Part shown: piece by piece, positions 1 through 10,370 of the stretch | Numbering within the stretch: position 1 is the stretch's first letter | How the letters are laid out: every line of letters begins with the position of its first letter | Position numbers and translations under genes: made by a program | The notes under the pieces: generated by a model | Told to the model about the DNA's origin: nothing | The model's input: the letters and a program-made list of their open reading frames with translations, nothing else | Databases searched by the model: none | DNA from: a virus | Length of the DNA: 21,707 nucleotides | Strand: one strand, 5' to 3' | Virus record (IMG/VR): IMGVR_UViG_3300033153_001636 | Span: 1 to 21,707 of that record

Positions 1-725
1 CCCAATTTGTCCTCTATATCCTTAATTGTCATTTCTTTTTTCACTTTTTCGTTTATTTCTGTATAACCTTTTATTCTACATTCATTTAGTTTTATTTTCG
101 TATTTTTTGGGATTTGGAAAAACTCAAAAATATCTCGACGAACACATACACAATCATCCCCTGTCTTGAACGTGCAATTATCCCATGTCTTGAACGTGCA
201 ACCATACCATGTCTTGAACGTGCAATCAGACCCTGTATCAAACGTGCAACCATACCATGTCTTGAACGTGCAACCATACCCTGTCTTGAACGCACAATCA
301 GACCCTGTATCAAACGTGCAATTATCCCCTGTATCAAACGTGCAATCATGCCCTGTCTTGAACGTGCAATCATCCCCTGTCTTGAACGTGCAATCAGACC
401 ATGTCTTGAACGTGCAACGATTCCCTGTCTTGAACGTGCAACGATACCCTGTATAGAACGTGCAATCATCCCCTGTATTGAACGTGCAATTATCCCCTGT
501 ATCGAACGTGCAATCAGACCCTGTCTTGAACGTGCAACGATTCCCTGTCTTGAACGTGCAAAAAGACCCTGTATCGAACGTGCAATCATCTATGCCCTGA
601 AAATCTAACACTAGATTATTTTCGTTTGAAGAAAAAGTTTTTGTTTTTTCATCCCACAAAAATTTATCTAATTCTAATTTTTGTCCGTTTTGCGAAACCC
701 TTTGTTGTATTTCTAGTTTTGTCAT
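1..725 (-). CDS. Octapeptide (xxCTFxTG) tandem-repeat phage protein, 3' end missing
   Basis: The reading frame starts at an ATG (725-723) and stays open to the left edge, so the C-terminus is missing. The start overlaps the YopX stop as ATGA and has an AGAGGAGGACAA ribosome-binding site. About 45 residues of ordinary N-terminus (beginning MTKLEIQQRVSQNG) lead into 18 consecutive eight-residue units with consensus xxCTF(K/D)TG. A degenerate unit DDCVCVRRDIFEF and a non-repetitive tail (IPKNTKIKLNECRIKGY) follow. The Cys-Thr-Phe ladder is nearly invariant (one Ala), while unit positions 1, 2 and 6 vary. Proteins with such CTFKTG units followed by a V-V-RRD-FE cap are, from memory, scattered among phages and prophages without a known function. 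A short-coil beta-solenoid related in spirit to pentapeptide repeats is my inference. Other frames over the repeats are also open, but only this frame joins a good start, coding-like flanks and the operon. Confidence 0.85.
   Translation of the reverse strand, partial: MTKLEIQQRVSQNGQKLELDKFLWDEKTKTFSSNENNLVLDFQGIDDCTFDTGSFCTFKTGNRCTFKTGSDCTFDTGDNCTFNTGDDCTFYTGYRCTFKTGNRCTFKTWSDCTFKTGDDCTFKTGHDCTFDTGDNCTFDTGSDCAFKTGYGCTFKTWYGCTFDTGSDCTFKTWYGCTFKTWDNCTFKTGDDCVCVRRDIFEFFQIPKNTKIKLNECRIKGYTEINEKVKKEMTIKDIEDKL
159..590 (-). repeat. 18 tandem copies of a 24-nt unit
   Basis: A 24-nt unit, on the minus strand GATGATTGCACGTTCAAGAC plus AGGG, is repeated 18 times without a gap. The TGCACGTTC core is almost identical in every copy, including third codon positions. 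Changes cluster at the codons for unit residues 1, 2, 6 and 8. Since 24 is a multiple of three and the unit lacks stops in several frames, long spurious ORFs appear on both strands. Identity at the DNA level points to recent expansion or homogenisation by slippage or recombination. Confidence 0.95.
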
Positions 726-3221: not shown

Positions 3222-3252
3222 TTTAAAATTCCTTTTTTTAGTTAGCCACATT

Positions 3253-3266
3253 TTGTGAATAACTTG
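3253..3266 (-). promoter_or_regulatory. DnaA-box-like site before the replication gene
   Basis: The minus strand reads CAAGTTATTCACAA, containing TTATTCACA (relaxed DnaA box TTATNCACA). It differs by one base from the 14-bp sequence TTGTGGATAACTTG at 6382-6395. Its position directly upstream of the replication initiator suggests an origin or initiator-binding role; this is inference. Confidence 0.45.
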
Positions 3267-3309
3267 AGAACCGTTTAACTCTTTTTATTCATACGTCATG
3301 ATGTTATAT

Positions 3310-3412
3310 TGGCTGAGACGTTAGGAGTTGCACCTAAATTTCCATTCCTTTAATCTAGCCTGTTGTATTAACAGCCTAGCGCTAGCGTGTTCCTAGGTTA
3401 CACTACGTCCCA
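3310..3412 (-). ncRNA. tRNA-like RNA with encoded CCA but no normal anticodon arm
   Basis: On the minus strand a 7-bp acceptor (TGGGACG 3412-3406 with CGTCTCA 3320-3314, one G.U) is followed by discriminator G and an encoded CCA (3312-3310). A two-base linker TA leads to a D-arm (stem GTGT/ACAC, 9-nt loop AACCTAGGA, 3403-3387). A T-arm (TTAGG, loop TGCAACT, CCTAA; 3337-3321) abuts the acceptor, exactly as in tRNA. The middle is abnormal: a hairpin CTAG-G-CTGTT, loop AATAC, AACAG-G-CTAG (3379-3355) and a 17-nt stretch. No 7-base anticodon loop with U33 can be drawn. Position 55 of the T-loop is G, not U. The wobble pair is a G.U only when the minus strand is the RNA. It could be a decayed tRNA, a class-II-like tRNA with an expanded anticodon loop, or a tRNA mimic. 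Confidence 0.5.
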
Positions 3413-3434
3413 ATAATTGTTTATATTAAAGTAG

Positions 3435-3650
3435 AGCAACATAAGCAGAGCAAGGACTTGCACCTTGCATTCCGACACGTAACTATGCCTTGTACAGGAA
3501 TTCCATTATCCTATAATTCGATCACTATTATATGATAAACATAATAGAACCTCCACTGTTGTACTCAAGGTTACTTCCAACTTTGTGAATTAACGACTCT
3601 ATTTGTCATCTATGAATGCGTCTACTATTCCGCCACCTGCTTATGTTACT
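3435..3650 (-). ncRNA. Long tRNA-like RNA: D-arm and T-arm look-alikes around a 140-nt insert
   Basis: The ends (3650-3635 and 3450-3435) form a 15-bp stem (core AACATAAGCAG / CTGCTTATGTT) whose two wobbles are G.U on the minus strand. Just inside, GCGGAATAGTAGACGC (3633-3618) matches the D-arm of class II tRNAs such as tRNA-Leu. GCAAGG-TGCAAGT-CCTTGC (3468-3450) is T-arm-like, with the same G55 as the neighbouring element. CATTC/GAATG (3618-3614, 3472-3468) can close the middle like an anticodon stem, but encloses about 140 nt. That insert contains its own long-range stem (3574-3561 with 3495-3479) and a 7-bp hairpin (3525-3547). No CCA is encoded. It is not a normal tRNA; I see no group I intron core. 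Y-RNA-like or novel phage RNA are possibilities. Confidence 0.45.
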
Positions 3651-3660
3651 GTATTTGAAT

Positions 3661-3744
3661 ATAAAAAAGAGTGCAGGTAGAATTAAAACAATTAAACTAT
3701 TTCAATTAGACCTGTTTGAGTGTAGGTTGTTCCCTGCACTCTTT
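3661..3744 (-). terminator. Long-stem terminator/attenuator in leftward leader
   Basis: A perfect 12-bp stem AAAGAGTGCAGG / CCTGCACTCTTT (3744-3733 with 3677-3666) ends in six U on the minus strand, like an intrinsic terminator but with a 55-nt loop. The loop can form a nested CAGGT...ACCTG hairpin. It also holds CTACACTC (3725-3718), which is complementary over 8 bp to GAGTGTAG (3785-3778), i.e. to the predicted first bases of the transcript. The alternative pairing would give a pseudoknot or compete with the terminator stem, so conditional termination is plausible. Confidence 0.5.
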
Positions 3745-3791
3745 AAAGGAGTTTGATTTCTTAATTGTTCTATCTATCTACACTCACGAAT

Positions 3792-3820
3792 AGTATAGTA
3801 CAATCATATATTAATGTCAA
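3792..3820 (-). promoter_or_regulatory. Strong leftward sigma70-type promoter
   Basis: On the minus strand TTGACA (3820-3815), a 17-bp spacer and TATACT (3797-3792) form a near-consensus promoter. Transcription should start near 3785, then run through the attenuator-like stem and the two tRNA-like elements into the replication gene. Confidence 0.85.
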
Positions 3821-3844
3821 TAAATACTTTTTATAGACGAGAGT

Positions 3845-3873
3845 TTGACTTTTTAATTTTCATTTGATATAAT
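3845..3873 (+). promoter_or_regulatory. Strong rightward promoter of small RNA
   Basis: TTGACT (3845-3850), a 17-bp spacer and a perfect TATAAT (3868-3873). The predicted start near 3880 coincides with the first base pair of the folded RNA that follows. It diverges from the leftward promoter with 25 bp between the two -35 boxes, so a regulator binding there could control both. Confidence 0.85.
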
Positions 3874-3879
3874 AAGGTC

Positions 3880-3966
3880 TGGCGTATAGGTAATGCTGGG
3901 TCGTTCCCAGTCAAACCTTATACATTCTCGTATATTTTTGATCTCTCGCCTATACGCCTTTTTTTT
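3880..3966 (+). ncRNA. Compact three-way-junction small RNA with own promoter and terminator
   Basis: A 10-bp stem GGCGTATAGG/CCTATACGCC (3881-3890 with 3949-3958) is followed by eight T, which gives a termination signal. It encloses two hairpins: CTGGG-TCGTT-CCCAG, and TCAAA-CCT-TATAC / GTATA-TT-TTTGA with loop ATTCTC. There is no ORF with a ribosome-binding site. The promoter start and the U-tract frame an RNA of about 87 nt. I do not recognise the family; the size and promoter strength suggest an abundant regulatory or decoy RNA. Confidence 0.65.
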
Positions 3967-3968
3967 AC

Positions 3969-3997
3969 TTGACATTGAAATTAGAATTTAGTAGAAT
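3969..3997 (+). promoter_or_regulatory. Rightward promoter for the middle region
   Basis: TTGACA (3969-3974), a 17-bp spacer and TAGAAT (3992-3997), starting three bases after the U-tract of the small RNA. The predicted start is near 4004. It should transcribe the structured leader, the leader peptide and the genes from 4250 on. Confidence 0.8.
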
Positions 3998-4011
3998 TAG
4001 ATATTGTAGTG

Positions 4012-4093
4012 ATTTTGATTGTGTCCAACTATTCTAATTTTTCGAATAGTACAAGGCTTAGAAGATTTATTTTTAAGCCCGCAATCATAAAAT
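4012..4093 (+). ncRNA. Three-way-junction leader RNA (riboswitch-like)
   Basis: The outer stem is ATTTT-GATTGTG (4012-4023) with CGCAATC-AT-AAAAT (4080-4093), with one G.U and an AU bulge. Inside are ACTATTC/GAATAGT (4028-4050) and GGCTTA/TAAGCC (4055-4079), the second abutting the outer stem. A small CGAG/CTCG hairpin (4096-4112) follows before the ribosome-binding site of the leader peptide. The architecture resembles a metabolite-sensing aptamer, but I match no known class; it may be a protein-binding leader instead. Confidence 0.4.
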
Positions 4094-4133
4094 TTCGAGA
4101 TTCATATACTCGGATAGAAAAAAGGAAATACTT

Positions 4134-4178
4134 ATGAAACAAACAAAAATACAAATTAAAACACACTGGGTTTGCTAG
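4134..4178 (+). CDS. Putative 14-codon leader peptide
   Basis: ATG preceded by AAGGAAATACTT encodes MKQTKIQIKTHWVC and a TAG stop. Its last codons run through the 5' arm of the long stem at 4159-4222, so a translating ribosome would open that stem. That is the usual geometry of a translation-controlled attenuator, but the peptide has no striking run of a single amino acid. It could equally be a chance ORF. Confidence 0.3.
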   Translation: MKQTKIQIKTHWVC

Positions 4179-4222
4179 CTTATTACTAGTTCTGCCTGCT
4201 TCCAATAGCGAGTATTTCCGCC
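4159..4222 (+). ncRNA. Long-stem RNA element before the helicase fragment
   Basis: Perfect 12-bp arms AAACACACTGGG (4159-4170) and CCCAGTGTGTTT (4211-4222) enclose CTAG-CTTATTA-CTAG and GCG-AGTATTTC-CGC hairpins. No U-tract follows. It ends 28 bases before the ATG at 4250. On the minus strand the second hairpin reads GCGGAAATACTCGC, close to the D-arm-like GCGGAATAGTAGACGC of the 3435-3650 element, so the two may be related and its coding strand is uncertain. Confidence 0.45.
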
Positions 4223-4249
4223 CAGTGTGTTTATAATAAAGGAATAAAT

Positions 4250-4753
4250 ATGAATGAATATCAAAGGTTTTTAAAATCTAAACAAAAAAATATAATAGAC
4301 ACAGGATTTGATATTGATGAGGAACAATTGAATGATAATTTGTTTGATTTTCAAAAATTTCTTGTAAAAATTGCATTAAAAAAAGGAAGATTTGCAATAT
4401 TTGCCAATTGTGGTTTAGGTAAAACTATTTGTCAGTTAGAATGGGCGTATCAAGTAAATAAAAAAGAAAATAAAAAAGTAATTTATTTTAAAGAGGAGGA
4501 GCAAATGCAAAGTAAAAAAATTAAAATCATGGGTATTATTAGTTTGTTTTTAGCAAGCATATTATCATTTTATTTGATATTTTATAAATTAACTCCTTTT
4601 TTATGTAGATTTTTACCACAGTCTAATGAATGGACAAAATTTATAAAATTATTGGTGTATATAATAATAGGTTGGTGTGGGGGGATAACAATACCATTAA
4701 GTTTGTTATTCTTCGCATTTTACTTATTATTTAACTTAAATAATAGAAGATAA
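4250..4753 (+). CDS. Truncated phage helicase N-terminus fused in frame to a membrane protein
   Basis: The first ~80 residues (MNEYQRFLKSKQKNIIDTGF ... LFDFQKFLVKIALKKGRFAI then FANCGLGKTICQLEWA) are the unmistakable start of the large phage DEAD/SNF2-like DNA helicases, including the Walker A motif GLGKT. In intact proteins several hundred residues with motifs Ia-VI follow. Here the sequence jumps after KKVIYF straight into EEEQMQSKKIKIMGIISLFL, a two-helix membrane protein with its own ribosome-binding site. This looks like an in-frame deletion that removed the helicase body. The 167-aa product could bind but not use ATP as a helicase. AAAGGAATAAAT precedes the ATG. A residual function cannot be excluded. 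Confidence 0.75.
   Translation: MNEYQRFLKSKQKNIIDTGFDIDEEQLNDNLFDFQKFLVKIALKKGRFAIFANCGLGKTICQLEWAYQVNKKENKKVIYFKEEEQMQSKKIKIMGIISLFLASILSFYLIFYKLTPFLCRFLPQSNEWTKFIKLLVYIIIGWCGGITIPLSLLFFAFYLLFNLNNRR
4505..4753 (+). CDS. Small two-helix membrane protein (internal start)
   Basis: ATG 4505 is preceded by AAAGAGGAGGAGCAA, a far better ribosome-binding site than that of the longer frame. The 82-residue product has a basic N-terminus (MQSKKIKIM), one hydrophobic helix (GIISLFLASILSFYLIFY), a polar loop (CRFLPQSNEWTKF) and a second hydrophobic region (LLVYIIIGWCGGITIPLSLL, then FFAFYLLF). It was probably an independent gene before the upstream deletion. The family is not recognised; a small inner-membrane phage protein is all that can be said. 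Confidence 0.6.
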   Translation: MQSKKIKIMGIISLFLASILSFYLIFYKLTPFLCRFLPQSNEWTKFIKLLVYIIIGWCGGITIPLSLLFFAFYLLFNLNNRR

Positions 4754-6318: not shown

Positions 6319-6394
6319 AAGTTATCCACAAGCTGTTTAGGGTAAACTTGTATATAATTACCTATTTTATTTATTGACAGCTTGTGGATAACTT
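6319..6394. repeat. 18-bp inverted repeat carrying two consensus DnaA boxes
   Basis: AAGTTATCCACAAGCTGT (6319-6336) is perfectly repeated in inverted orientation at 6377-6394, with 40 bp between. Each arm contains TTATCCACA, the exact DnaA-box consensus, facing the other. The spacer is AT-rich. A near copy of one arm lies at 3253-3266 before the replication gene. Possible roles are a replication origin, or a control site for the late promoter that overlaps the right arm. Confidence 0.75.
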
Positions 6395-6402
6395 GTTAGT
6401 AT
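6374..6402 (+). promoter_or_regulatory. Promoter for the virion operon
   Basis: TTGACA (6374-6379), a 17-bp spacer and TAGTAT (6397-6402). The spacer consists almost entirely of the right DnaA-box arm, so a protein bound there should block or alter transcription of the terminase-to-virion operon. Confidence 0.65.
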
Positions 6403-6923: not shown

Positions 6924-8434
6924 GTATATGCAGTCAATTATCAAGAAAGCAATCAAATAAGTTATATTTAGATGTCTTAGAAGAGAAAGACGCTAAATCT
7001 CTAAGACAGTTGTGTCAACAAGATCTGTTTTTTCTTCTTACTGTTGCTTGCAAGCGTATAGATATAGACCGGGAATGGTTATATCAGAGATGTAGAGAAG
7101 TCGAAGCTAATGCGAACGGATATTTAGACTTGTGGGCGAGAGAACATTATAAGTCAACTATAATCACTTTTGGTAAAACAATTCAAGATATATTATGCAA
7201 TCCTGATCTTACTGTAGGAATATTTTCACATACACGACCAATCGCAAAAGCATTTTTGGATCAAATAAAAAGAGAATTTGAAACCAATGATTTTTTAAAA
7301 AAGTTATTTTCTGACATTTTATATGAGTTTCCGACCAGAGAATCGCAAAAATGGTCATTAGATGCTGGTATTATAGTGAAAAGAAAAACTAACCCAAAAG
7401 AATGTACAATAGAGGCGTGGGGATTAGTAGATGGACAGCCGACAGGGAAGCATTTCAACTTGCTTGTATATGATGATGTTGTTACAATCGCTAGCGTTAC
7501 AACCCCAGAACAAATTCAAAAAACTACAGATGCTTTAGCATTGTCATATAATCTCGGTAGTGACGGAGGAAGACGTAGATTTATCGGTACTAGATATCAT
7601 TACAATGATACTTATAGAGCTATAATTGAGAGAAAGACTGTAATAGTACGGACACATGCGGCGACTGATAACGGTCTTGTAACTGGGAATCCAGTCCTGT
7701 TTAGTCAGAAAGATTTGTTGCAAAAATATAACGATATGGGAGTATATGTATTCTCTTGTCAGATGTTACAGAATCCCTCGGCTGATAAGGCAATGGGTTT
7801 CAAAAAAGAATGGTTGAATCATTATGACAGAATATCAAATACAGAGTGTTGGAATTATTATATTTTGGTTGATCCTGCAGGAGAGAAGAAAAAAGGTAGT
7901 GATTACACTGTAATGTTAGTAATTGCCACTGCTCATGATAATAGTTACTATCTTATAGACGCTATACGTGCAAGATATAATCTTTCAGAACGTACAGACA
8001 AGCTATTTGAGTTAGTGAAGAAATATAATCCTATTCGTGTAGGCTACGAAAAATATGGATTGCAAAGCGATATAGAGCATATTAAGTACGTGCAAGAACA
8101 ATACAATTATAGATTCAATATAGTAGCGCTTAGCGGGCAAATTTCTAAAAACGACAGAATTAGAAGCTTAGTTCCTATTTTCCAAAATAATAGAATGTGG
8201 TTTCCGCATACGTTATATTATATTGACCATGAAAATAAACAAAAAGATTTCATTGATGAGTTTATACGTCTTGAATATGATGCGTTCCCAGTATGCGTTC
8301 ATGATGATATGTTAGACTGTTTGGCTCGCATAACAGACGAAAAATTTGGGATAGAATTTCCTAATTTCGAGCAACTGACAAGCAATAATGATATATACAC
8401 AGCTAAAACAGATTATGATGTACTAATAGGATAG
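6920..8434 (+). CDS. terL: Terminase large subunit
   Basis: A 504-residue packaging motor of the T7/Bbp-like podovirus type. The N-terminal ATPase has a deviant Walker A LWAREHYKST (71-80), Walker B LLVYDDVV (181-188; D185, D186) and the coupling region FIGTRYHYNDTY (221-232). The C-terminal RNase H-like nuclease has its acidic residues in ILVDPAGEKKKGSDYT (D318), VGYEKYG (E377) and CVHDDMLDCLAR (D462/D463). It translocates DNA into proheads and cuts concatemers. GTG start with AAGGTGAA upstream, overlapping a mini-ORF. The length is normal. It is followed by the short conserved protein typical of this gene order. Confidence 0.95.
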   Translation: MSICSQLSRKQSNKLYLDVLEEKDAKSLRQLCQQDLFFLLTVACKRIDIDREWLYQRCREVEANANGYLDLWAREHYKSTIITFGKTIQDILCNPDLTVGIFSHTRPIAKAFLDQIKREFETNDFLKKLFSDILYEFPTRESQKWSLDAGIIVKRKTNPKECTIEAWGLVDGQPTGKHFNLLVYDDVVTIASVTTPEQIQKTTDALALSYNLGSDGGRRRFIGTRYHYNDTYRAIIERKTVIVRTHAATDNGLVTGNPVLFSQKDLLQKYNDMGVYVFSCQMLQNPSADKAMGFKKEWLNHYDRISNTECWNYYILVDPAGEKKKGSDYTVMLVIATAHDNSYYLIDAIRARYNLSERTDKLFELVKKYNPIRVGYEKYGLQSDIEHIKYVQEQYNYRFNIVALSGQISKNDRIRSLVPIFQNNRMWFPHTLYYIDHENKQKDFIDEFIRLEYDAFPVCVHDDMLDCLARITDEKFGIEFPNFEQLTSNNDIYTAKTDYDVLIG

Positions 8435-8720: not shown

Positions 8721-10370
8721 TTGGATAAGAAGAATTATACAGCAAGATTAGCATCCTTAACGAATAGCAATAGTACGTTTAGAGCTCATTGGAAAGATAT
8801 ATCAGAGTATTTATTGCCTCGCCGTGGCTTGTATTTGACTGAAACCTCACAAAGTACTTATAATCGTGGTGAAAAAAAAGGTCAAAAAATTATAAATGGA
8901 TTACCAAGTGAATCACTAAAGACATTAGCAAGTGGTCTATATAGTGGTTTGACCCCAAGTTCTACGCCTTGGTTCATGATGACGATTGATGATGAAGAAT
9001 TGAAAGAACAACAAGATGTGAAAACGTGGTTACATGATGTCAGGAGTAAAATGTTAAGTGCATTAGCACAATCAAACTTTTATTCTATTATCGCTGGTAT
9101 ATATACAGAATTAGCCGCATTTGGGACGTCCGCCTTGATTATAGAAGAAGATTTCAATAATATATTAAGATTTAAGCATTTTACGATTGGGTCTTATTAT
9201 TTAGCTAACGATTCGGACCAAAGAGTTAATATATTATACAGAAAATTCACAATGACTGCTAATCAAATGATAGATAAATTCGGCGAAGAAAATGTATCAG
9301 AACAAATACAACAAGCCTTTAAAAATAATGACTTGCAGACTAATTTTGAAATTGTACATTGTATTCAACCTAATACGCAATCAGAAAAATTTAAGAATTT
9401 TGAATATGAATCTGTTTATTTCCAAGAAGGTGCTACATCTCCGGAATTTTTAAAAGTATCAGGTTATCATGAGAAACCTTTTGCCGTAGCACGTTGGGAT
9501 TTAATAGGCGATGGAGTTTATGGGGATAGTTGTCCGGGCATGATAGCTTTGGGTGATATTAAGATGTTACAAAAAATGGAAATTAAAAAGTTAAAAGGCT
9601 TAGATAAGGCTGTTGATCCTCCAATGAATGCTCCATCGAGTTTGAAAAACAAACCTAACACTATCGTGTCGGGAGGTGTTAATTATATTGACCCTGCTTC
9701 TGCTCAACAAAGTTTTACACCTACATACATGGTTAGTTTGGACTATCAAAAAATAGCTTTTGAATTAGATCGAGTAGAGGCGAGAATTAAAAGATTCTTT
9801 TTTAACGAGTTATTTTTCACTGTCTCGGCTCAAACTAAAAACATGACTGCAACAGAAGTAGCTAGACGACACGAAGAAAGAGTTATGATGTTTGGTGCGG
9901 TACTAGAAAGGTTACAATCTGAGTTATTTGATGATATTCTAACCCGTGTATATTCTATATTAGACAATTTCGGAATGATCCCAGAACCTCCTAAAGCATT
10001 AGCCGATAAGCCTTTAGAAATAAGGTATATTTCTCAATTATCACAATCTCAACGTGCTATCCAAACAACAGCATTAGAGCAAGTTACAGCGTTTGTAGGA
10101 AATGTTGCACAACTTAAGCCTGAAACATTAGACAAGATAGATTTTGACGAAACAGTAGACCAGTATGCAGATATGATAGGTGTTCCACCTAAAGTTGTAC
10201 GGACCGATGAAGCGGTATTGGGTATAAGAAATCAACGTGCAGAGCAATTAGCGGCACAGCAAATGGCTGAATCTGGAAAACAGTTAGCAGATACAAGTAA
10301 AACATTATCTGATACTGAACTAAATAAAGATAGTGCGTTAGATGGACTATTGGAGGGCGAAAGTGGTTGA
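8721..10370 (+). CDS. Portal / head-to-tail connector protein (T7 gp8-like)
   Basis: A 549-residue protein starting at TTG 8721 behind GGGGGAATAAT. It has the features of podovirus head-to-tail connecting proteins: FRAHWKDISEYLLPRRG near the N-terminus, LKTLASGLYSGLTPSSTPWF (about 75-95), LAAFGTSALIIEED, the clip-region VARWDLIGDGVYGDSCPG, and MTATEVARRHEERV in the long stem helix. The C-terminus is Gln/Ala-rich. Twelve copies would form the portal ring at one capsid vertex, where the terminase docks and the tail tubular proteins attach. It ends inside the start region of the next gene. Confidence 0.95.
   Translation: MDKKNYTARLASLTNSNSTFRAHWKDISEYLLPRRGLYLTETSQSTYNRGEKKGQKIINGLPSESLKTLASGLYSGLTPSSTPWFMMTIDDEELKEQQDVKTWLHDVRSKMLSALAQSNFYSIIAGIYTELAAFGTSALIIEEDFNNILRFKHFTIGSYYLANDSDQRVNILYRKFTMTANQMIDKFGEENVSEQIQQAFKNNDLQTNFEIVHCIQPNTQSEKFKNFEYESVYFQEGATSPEFLKVSGYHEKPFAVARWDLIGDGVYGDSCPGMIALGDIKMLQKMEIKKLKGLDKAVDPPMNAPSSLKNKPNTIVSGGVNYIDPASAQQSFTPTYMVSLDYQKIAFELDRVEARIKRFFFNELFFTVSAQTKNMTATEVARRHEERVMMFGAVLERLQSELFDDILTRVYSILDNFGMIPEPPKALADKPLEIRYISQLSQSQRAIQTTALEQVTAFVGNVAQLKPETLDKIDFDETVDQYADMIGVPPKVVRTDEAVLGIRNQRAEQLAAQQMAESGKQLADTSKTLSDTELNKDSALDGLLEGESG

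Follow-up and report, generated by a model that had tools for sequence, protein, structure and literature searches.

Among the closest described systems is tmRNA (SsrA), in which acceptor and T-arm close the molecule and a closing helix, instead of an anticodon stem, leads into a structured body. The phage RNAs described here have the same arrangement, but differ from tmRNA in an intact 3-bp D-stem with a Leu-like loop, a 6-bp T-stem, G55 and the lack of an encoded CCA. In addition, their acceptors vary freely, without a conserved acceptor identity, and their bodies are unrelated between members. Bacterial tRNA-Leu (RF00005) has an almost identical D-arm together with U8, a 7-bp acceptor and mostly A73, whereas the phage RNAs lack the anticodon arm and CCA and carry a 6-bp T-stem with the loop UGCAAAU in place of UUCRANY. 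The bacterial Y RNA YrlA resembles the element analyzed here, element B, in its tRNA-like module and its long end-to-end stem; the layout is different, as the tRNA-like part of element B forms the ends and the variable part lies inside. G55 instead of pseudouridine 55 is also found in the T-loop of the staphylococcal cell-wall tRNA-Gly, which, unlike the phage RNAs, is a real tRNA with an anticodon and serves as a glycine donor. ROOL and GOLLD are likewise unannotated RNAs of phage tRNA clusters and sometimes lie side by side with the family (locus L185 carries ROOL), but ROOL is an ornate RNA of 574 nt without a tRNA frame. Rfam 15 holds no family covering tRNA-framed phage RNAs, and we found no mention of the motif in the open-access literature; an earlier account may exist elsewhere.

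Element B in its viral genome

Element B is encoded in an IMG/VR virus record of 21,707 bases (GC content 32%), which was analyzed as a whole and is called the window. With a terminase (6920+) and a head protein (11297+), the latter about 62% identical to those of phiV10-type phages, the window is a podovirus-like genome. A divergent intergenic region of about 1 kb (3252-4249) contains element B on the minus strand, downstream of a promoter match and upstream of a DnaD-like gene (Table 1). No ORF of 60 or more amino acids overlaps the element. The promoter match could drive element B, the neighbouring element A and the DnaD-like gene. This setting, in an early leftward region on the strand opposite to the terminase operon, is unlike that of the other members described below. 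The early region is not conserved among terminase relatives (12, then 160 loci compared), and a search for relatives of the DnaD-like gene found none.

Table 1. Positions of element B, its parts and neighbouring features in the window.
Feature	Position	Strand	Basis
Sigma-70-like promoter match (11/12)	3792..3820	-	consensus match only
Element B, tRNA-framed RNA, 200 nt acceptor to acceptor	3443..3642	-	pattern match, fold
5' side of 8-bp outward acceptor extension (partner 3435-3442)	3643..3650	-	pairing
Acceptor 5' strand, AAGCAGG	3636..3642	-	7/7 pairs with 3443-3449; pair positions covary in relatives
tRNA-Leu-like D-arm, GCG-GAAUAGUAGA-CGC = GCGGAAUAGUAGACGC	3618..3633	-	near-invariant in family
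Variable body, 149 nt, replacing anticodon and variable arms	3469..3617	-	length class 186-216 nt for whole elements
T-arm, 6-bp stem GCAAGG (3468-3463)/CCUUGC (3455-3450), loop UGCAAGU (3462-3456), G55	3450..3468	-	model R1 match 3450-3470, 18.4 bits
Acceptor 3' strand, UCUGCUU	3443..3449	-	7/7 pairs with 3636-3642; pair positions covary in relatives
Element A, tRNA-like RNA: 7-bp acceptor, D-arm, 21-nt anticodon-region loop, 5-bp T-stem, loop UGCAACU, G73, CCA	3310..3412	-	strict tRNA parse

One of the seven acceptor pairs of element B is G.U, and U8 and G9 sit between acceptor and D-arm. Including the outward extension, the acceptor helix comprises 15 bp; at least eight extra outward pairs are rare in the family described below (3/158 elements). 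These results confirmed the anatomy given in the original prediction, namely a tRNA-like, structured minus-strand RNA that has a long outer stem, a class-II (Leu-like) D-arm, a G55 T-arm and a large insert, although the insert, given there as 140 nt, is 149 nt long.

The minus strand folds at -65.4 kcal/mol (z -3.8), and none of 200 shuffles was as good. The tRNA-like core lies 1.3 kcal/mol above the minimum-energy fold. Because the plus strand reaches a similar z of -3.9, the single fold gives no polarity. The minus strand, which had been read from wobble pairs in the outer stem, was the right one, but it is the motif family that gives the polarity.

ARAGORN with default settings and Rfam gave no match at element B, and RF00005 gave none in the window at E values up to 10. 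No tmRNA was found at element B by Rfam or ARAGORN; a low-threshold match (-ps80) was obtained only at 9961-10310. Rfam group I intron models did not match inside the insert at E values up to 10. An insert of 149 nt is too small for the catalytic core of a group I intron. A link to Y RNAs had been raised as well, and a Y RNA identity of element B was rejected: a Ro60/TROVE gene was present in 0 of 40 records (the window and 39 carrier phages) in a search that detected it in Deinobacterium as positive control, and no Rfam Y RNA matched.

A family of tRNA-framed RNAs in phages

For the identification of relatives, we used a search pattern derived from element B, GGAAN{2,3}GTAGACNCN{138,168}GGTGCAANYCC. 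It constrains the T-loop and a portion of the D-arm, whereas the acceptor and most of the T-stem, including its outer part, are left free. As acceptor and outer T-stem are absent from the pattern, their pairing can be tested fairly. The pattern matched once in the window, in none of 100 window shuffles and in 55 viral contigs; with a gap of 28-58 nt, at least 120 stretches matched. A full 7-bp acceptor at the fixed register was present in 77% (37/48) of the distinct long-gap matches and in 73% (77/106) of the distinct short-gap matches listed, both unselected. Slid registers yielded no perfect acceptors apart from nine at -1, all of them in genuine tRNA-Leu genes, whose T-stem has 5 bp, and swapping the acceptor partners between elements left only about 2-3 fully paired. 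We also aligned 35 long members and found double-sided changes at 12 of the 16 pairs, amounting to 166 cells in comparison to 43 in shuffles. The members had been preselected for full pairing, which makes their 100% pairing a matter of construction; RNAalifold returned precisely those 16 pairs. Conservation without compensatory changes, named in the original prediction as the outcome that would speak against it, was not what we observed: such changes are abundant.

Altogether, at least 158 distinct G55 elements were counted in the loci collected. In 148 of them, the acceptor has 7 bp and the T-stem below it 6 bp, and roughly 100 distinct acceptor sequences with full pairing occur among the 158. 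The T-loop is UGCAAAU in 148/158 elements and an A directly follows the acceptor in 103/158, whereas CCA is encoded in 3/158. There are two main length classes, 78-129 nt and 186-216 nt, and element B with its 200 nt belongs to the second. We defined the family by a D-arm of the form UGG-N-GGAA-NAG(G)UAGAC-N-C following a 7-nt acceptor, by a 6-bp T-stem with the loop UGCAANU, and by a 7-bp acceptor helix adjoining that stem. Element B has the corresponding D-arm (UGGCGGAAUAGUAGACGC), with a D-loop shorter by one G as in loci L185 and L187, the T-arm GCAAGG-UGCAAGU-CCUUGC and the 7/6 geometry, with AAGCAGG/UCUGCUU pairing directly outside the T-stem. Element B is almost certainly a genuine RNA and a member of this phage family, which is widespread. 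What the original prediction had missed is that element B has many counterparts in phages and belongs to a group whose ends are largely host-typed.

A covariance-model search of phage DNA, suggested there as a check, was performed with a model (R1) built from 22 short members with the window left out. In the window, R1 recovered only the two halves of element B (22.0 and 18.4 bits) and element A, and it splits other long members into halves likewise. In 1.5 Mb of terminase-linked control phage DNA, it gave one tRNA-like match. This match (L088 3420-3561, plus strand) lies in a prophage-like locus of an alphaproteobacterial MAG and shows a 6-bp T-stem, a near-complete 7-bp acceptor, a normal UUCGAAU T-loop and an insertion.

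The D- and T-loops are near-invariant across the family. The anticodon arm is absent, and inserts of 26-30 nt leave no room for one. The bodies range from 26 to about 165 nt; they are unrelated between subfamilies and alignable within subfamilies of 3-5 sequences. A 6-bp closing helix with its 3' arm ending 2 nt before the T-stem was found in 42/143 members (5.8 in shuffles). This signal peaks sharply at offset 2, where the dinucleotide is AU in 120/143, and the topology is that of tmRNA, not of tRNA. Element B, whose body is known from one sequence only, has no closing helix at offset 2; a 5-bp candidate at offset 4 (UGACA/UGUCG) is energetically costly. Two further observations concern tRNA sequences. 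One family member (L177 4885-5123, minus strand) contains a complete tRNA-like match in its body (RF00005, 34.6 bits), i.e. a tRNA nested in a tRNA frame, and five loci (L277, L290, L291, L309 and L331) carry real phage tRNA-Leu genes with an intact anticodon arm that also have G55 (UGCAANU), some of them encoding CCA.

Most members are encoded on the same strand as their neighbours (upstream 123/148, downstream 114/142). In 41 loci, a terminase large subunit gene follows downstream, and in many a late activator of the ArpU type or a related one lies just upstream, while other members lie within tRNA clusters of large virulent phages. The D-arm motif is present in one copy in most records and in seven copies in one. 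Terminators follow 22/137 members in comparison to 0-2 in shuffles, and promoters are not enriched. The same-strand operon setting, together with downstream terminators and the lack of an own promoter, fits processing from a longer transcript. Members, mostly unannotated, occur in Listeria phages B025 and P100, Lactobacillus phages LP65, ATCC 8014-B2 and Lb338-1, and others. In a related phage (L010), we also noted a type II hammerhead ribozyme at 7257-7321 (minus strand), about 2.7 kb upstream of the terminase.

Ends, bodies and possible function

Comparison of members from different phages points to a close relation between the ends and the host. Listeria phages P100 (Herelleviridae), LP-037 (Homburgvirus), vB_LmoS_188 and B025 have ATACTCG/CGAGTAT and GCAAGG/CCTTGC in common (ATACTCG...GCAAGGTGCAAATCCTTGCCGAGTAT), combined with unrelated bodies. 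The L. plantarum phages Lenus, Iacchus and ATCC 8014-B2 and Lactobacillus phage Sha1 have GTGCTTG/CAAGCAC and GTAGGG/CCCTAC in common (GTGCTTG...GTAGGGTGCAAATCCCTACCAAGCAC), and a Lacticaseibacillus set has ATCGCTG/CAGCGAT and GTCGGG/CCCGAC (ATCGCTG...GTCGGGTGCAAATCCCGACCAGCGAT). Among 124 fully paired elements, 36 pairs are identical in the whole acceptor and T-stem but less than 55% identical in their bodies; 0.19 such pairs are expected under independent draws, though this figure takes no account of shared ancestry, and related pairs enter the count more than once. The reverse is seen as well: the body in L267 recurs without change in L265/L266, where the acceptor is quite different. Since identical ends carry unrelated bodies and vice versa, ends and bodies move separately.

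Acceptor and T-stem are nearly, not strictly, host-typed, with a Tenericutes phage carrying L. plantarum ends and a Levilactobacillus brevis plasmid carrying nearly the same 3' end as exceptions. The ends of element B itself were matched in no other viral contig searched, and the host-typing pattern comes from the other phages. A divergent member is present in P100, A511 and relatives (L365 26403-26543, minus strand; P100 126403-126543), where it lies in a gap beside tRNA-Asn in a tRNA cluster. Both of its loops are altered together (D-loop GAAAAAATAT, T-loop TGAAAAT), as expected if the two loops touch.

Overall, element B is best read as a phage RNA that is processed and tRNA-capped, with host-matched ends and an effector body that can be exchanged. 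We hold this reading with about even confidence; the mechanism within it is more tentative. Host tRNA maturation enzymes, acting on the tRNA-like end, would excise the RNA from a longer phage transcript, which would result in a stable, tRNA-capped non-coding RNA protected by its frame, with the body as effector. Recognition by RNase P and RNase Z in the absence of CCA is assumed here, and the 8-bp outward extension of element B could hinder 5' cleavage. The ends would be matched to a predicted partner specific to the host. This partner would most likely be an RNA that the host encodes and that is shaped like the phage RNA, or else a protein binding such an RNA, and the phage RNA would replace it or act as its decoy. 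Such matching is probable because unrelated phages infecting one host have the same ends, which differ altogether from host to host, with the bodies being exchanged independently. The simplest candidate is the similarly shaped host RNA, as the enzymes known to handle tRNAs are so well conserved among related Firmicutes that they would not select different acceptors there. Shared ends could also arise by recombination between co-infecting phages.

Several other explanations have to be weighed against this reading. The layout of acceptor, D-arm, closing helix, body and T-arm matches that of tmRNA, and the elements might be aminoacylated with Leu identity and act on the ribosome through an active part in the body. 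The Leu-like D-arm and the A after the acceptor in 103/158 elements would suit leucylation, and LeuRS is known to ignore the anticodon. We nevertheless consider this unlikely: CCA is encoded in 3/158 elements only, G55 is present, the acceptor/T stack has 13 bp like tRNA-Sec and not 12, bodies of 26 nt could not accommodate an mRNA-like part, and the ARAGORN tmRNA match in the window was low-threshold only and elsewhere. A decaying tRNA-Leu gene with an insertion would explain why the D-arm is almost identical to that of tRNA-Leu, and real phage tRNA-Leu genes with G55 do exist; such a relic is, however, highly improbable, being contradicted by the covariation, by pairing that is kept through about 100 acceptors, by the near-invariant D- and T-loops and by a 7+6 geometry of its own.

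The other two alternatives place the function in the DNA or in cis. The conserved D- and T-arms might serve phages of the same host as sites of homologous recombination for exchanging cassettes, with host-typing merely reflecting a shared gene pool, and identical ends with unrelated bodies, as well as the reverse, are what such a DNA-level exchange site would produce. Covariation and U.G pairs, in contrast, show selection on RNA pairing, and the sharing extends across virulent Herelleviridae and temperate phages that infect one host, with ends that change wholesale with the host; this explanation therefore also appears improbable. A cis-acting leader element, serving as processing punctuation or as a packaging or late-operon signal and having no trans function, agrees with the terminase downstream in 41 loci and the late activator upstream in many. 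Its probability is rather low, as element B and the terminase operon are on opposite strands, large phages carry the element in tRNA clusters, the D-arm motif is repeated in some phages, up to 7 times, and the variable bodies would be left unexplained.

As to expression, the most highly transcribed unannotated region of Listeria phage cka15 lies near tRNA genes (PMC12282133). We searched this region (26236-26727; L366 1737-2228, minus strand) and found no family member; it was rejected as expression evidence for the family, being a different RNA. The divergent member of P100, A511 and relatives occupies another place in the tRNA cluster.

Returning to the tRNA-capped RNA with host-matched ends, it is possible, if short of probable, that phages carry an unrecognised class of tRNA-framed RNAs whose ends are matched to a host RNA or defence component and whose effector bodies are exchangeable. 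If true, this would mean that unrelated phages and the host they have in common are engaged in an RNA arms race. The family would add a new phage RNA class that is present in well-studied phages yet absent from Rfam, and its nearly host-typed ends and exchangeable bodies lead to a testable statement on the host partner. It also bears on phage tRNA mimicry beyond codon supply and points to unexplored phage-bacterium contact at the RNA level.

Element A and further features of the window

Element A was the only match of a strict G55 tRNA-parse scan of 2.03 Mb on both strands. Its R1 score of 21.4 bits compares with 36-41 bits for real tRNA-Leu and 55-78 bits for short family members. A search for relatives gave 6 pattern matches, none with tRNA pairing, and thereby doubles as a negative control. 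The original prediction had regarded elements A and B as related, which was only partly right. They do have the G55 loop in common, but element A differs in its 5-bp T-stem, its D-arm, its CCA, the lack of relatives in the search and the low R1 score, and it is a separate CCA-bearing tRNA-like RNA.

The intergenic region of element B harbours three more closed elements (3666-3744, 3881-3957 and 4159-4232), each with a perfect stem of 10-12 bp around 50-57 nt and a z of about -4 to -6. The one at 3881-3957 resembles a small RNA with a terminator in that a promoter match on the plus strand lies just ahead of its start and eight T come after it. Directly adjacent, the gene at 4250-4753 (plus strand) encodes an N-terminal helicase fragment (Walker A region) that runs into an unrelated membrane-protein-like tail, and is apparently truncated or recombined. 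An inverted repeat of about 20 bp with two inverted DnaA-box sequences (TTATCCACA) at 6320-6395 is a possible replication origin. At the very start of the window, 3-725 (minus strand) encodes a protein built of TGxxCTF repeats, with overlapping frames open on both strands.
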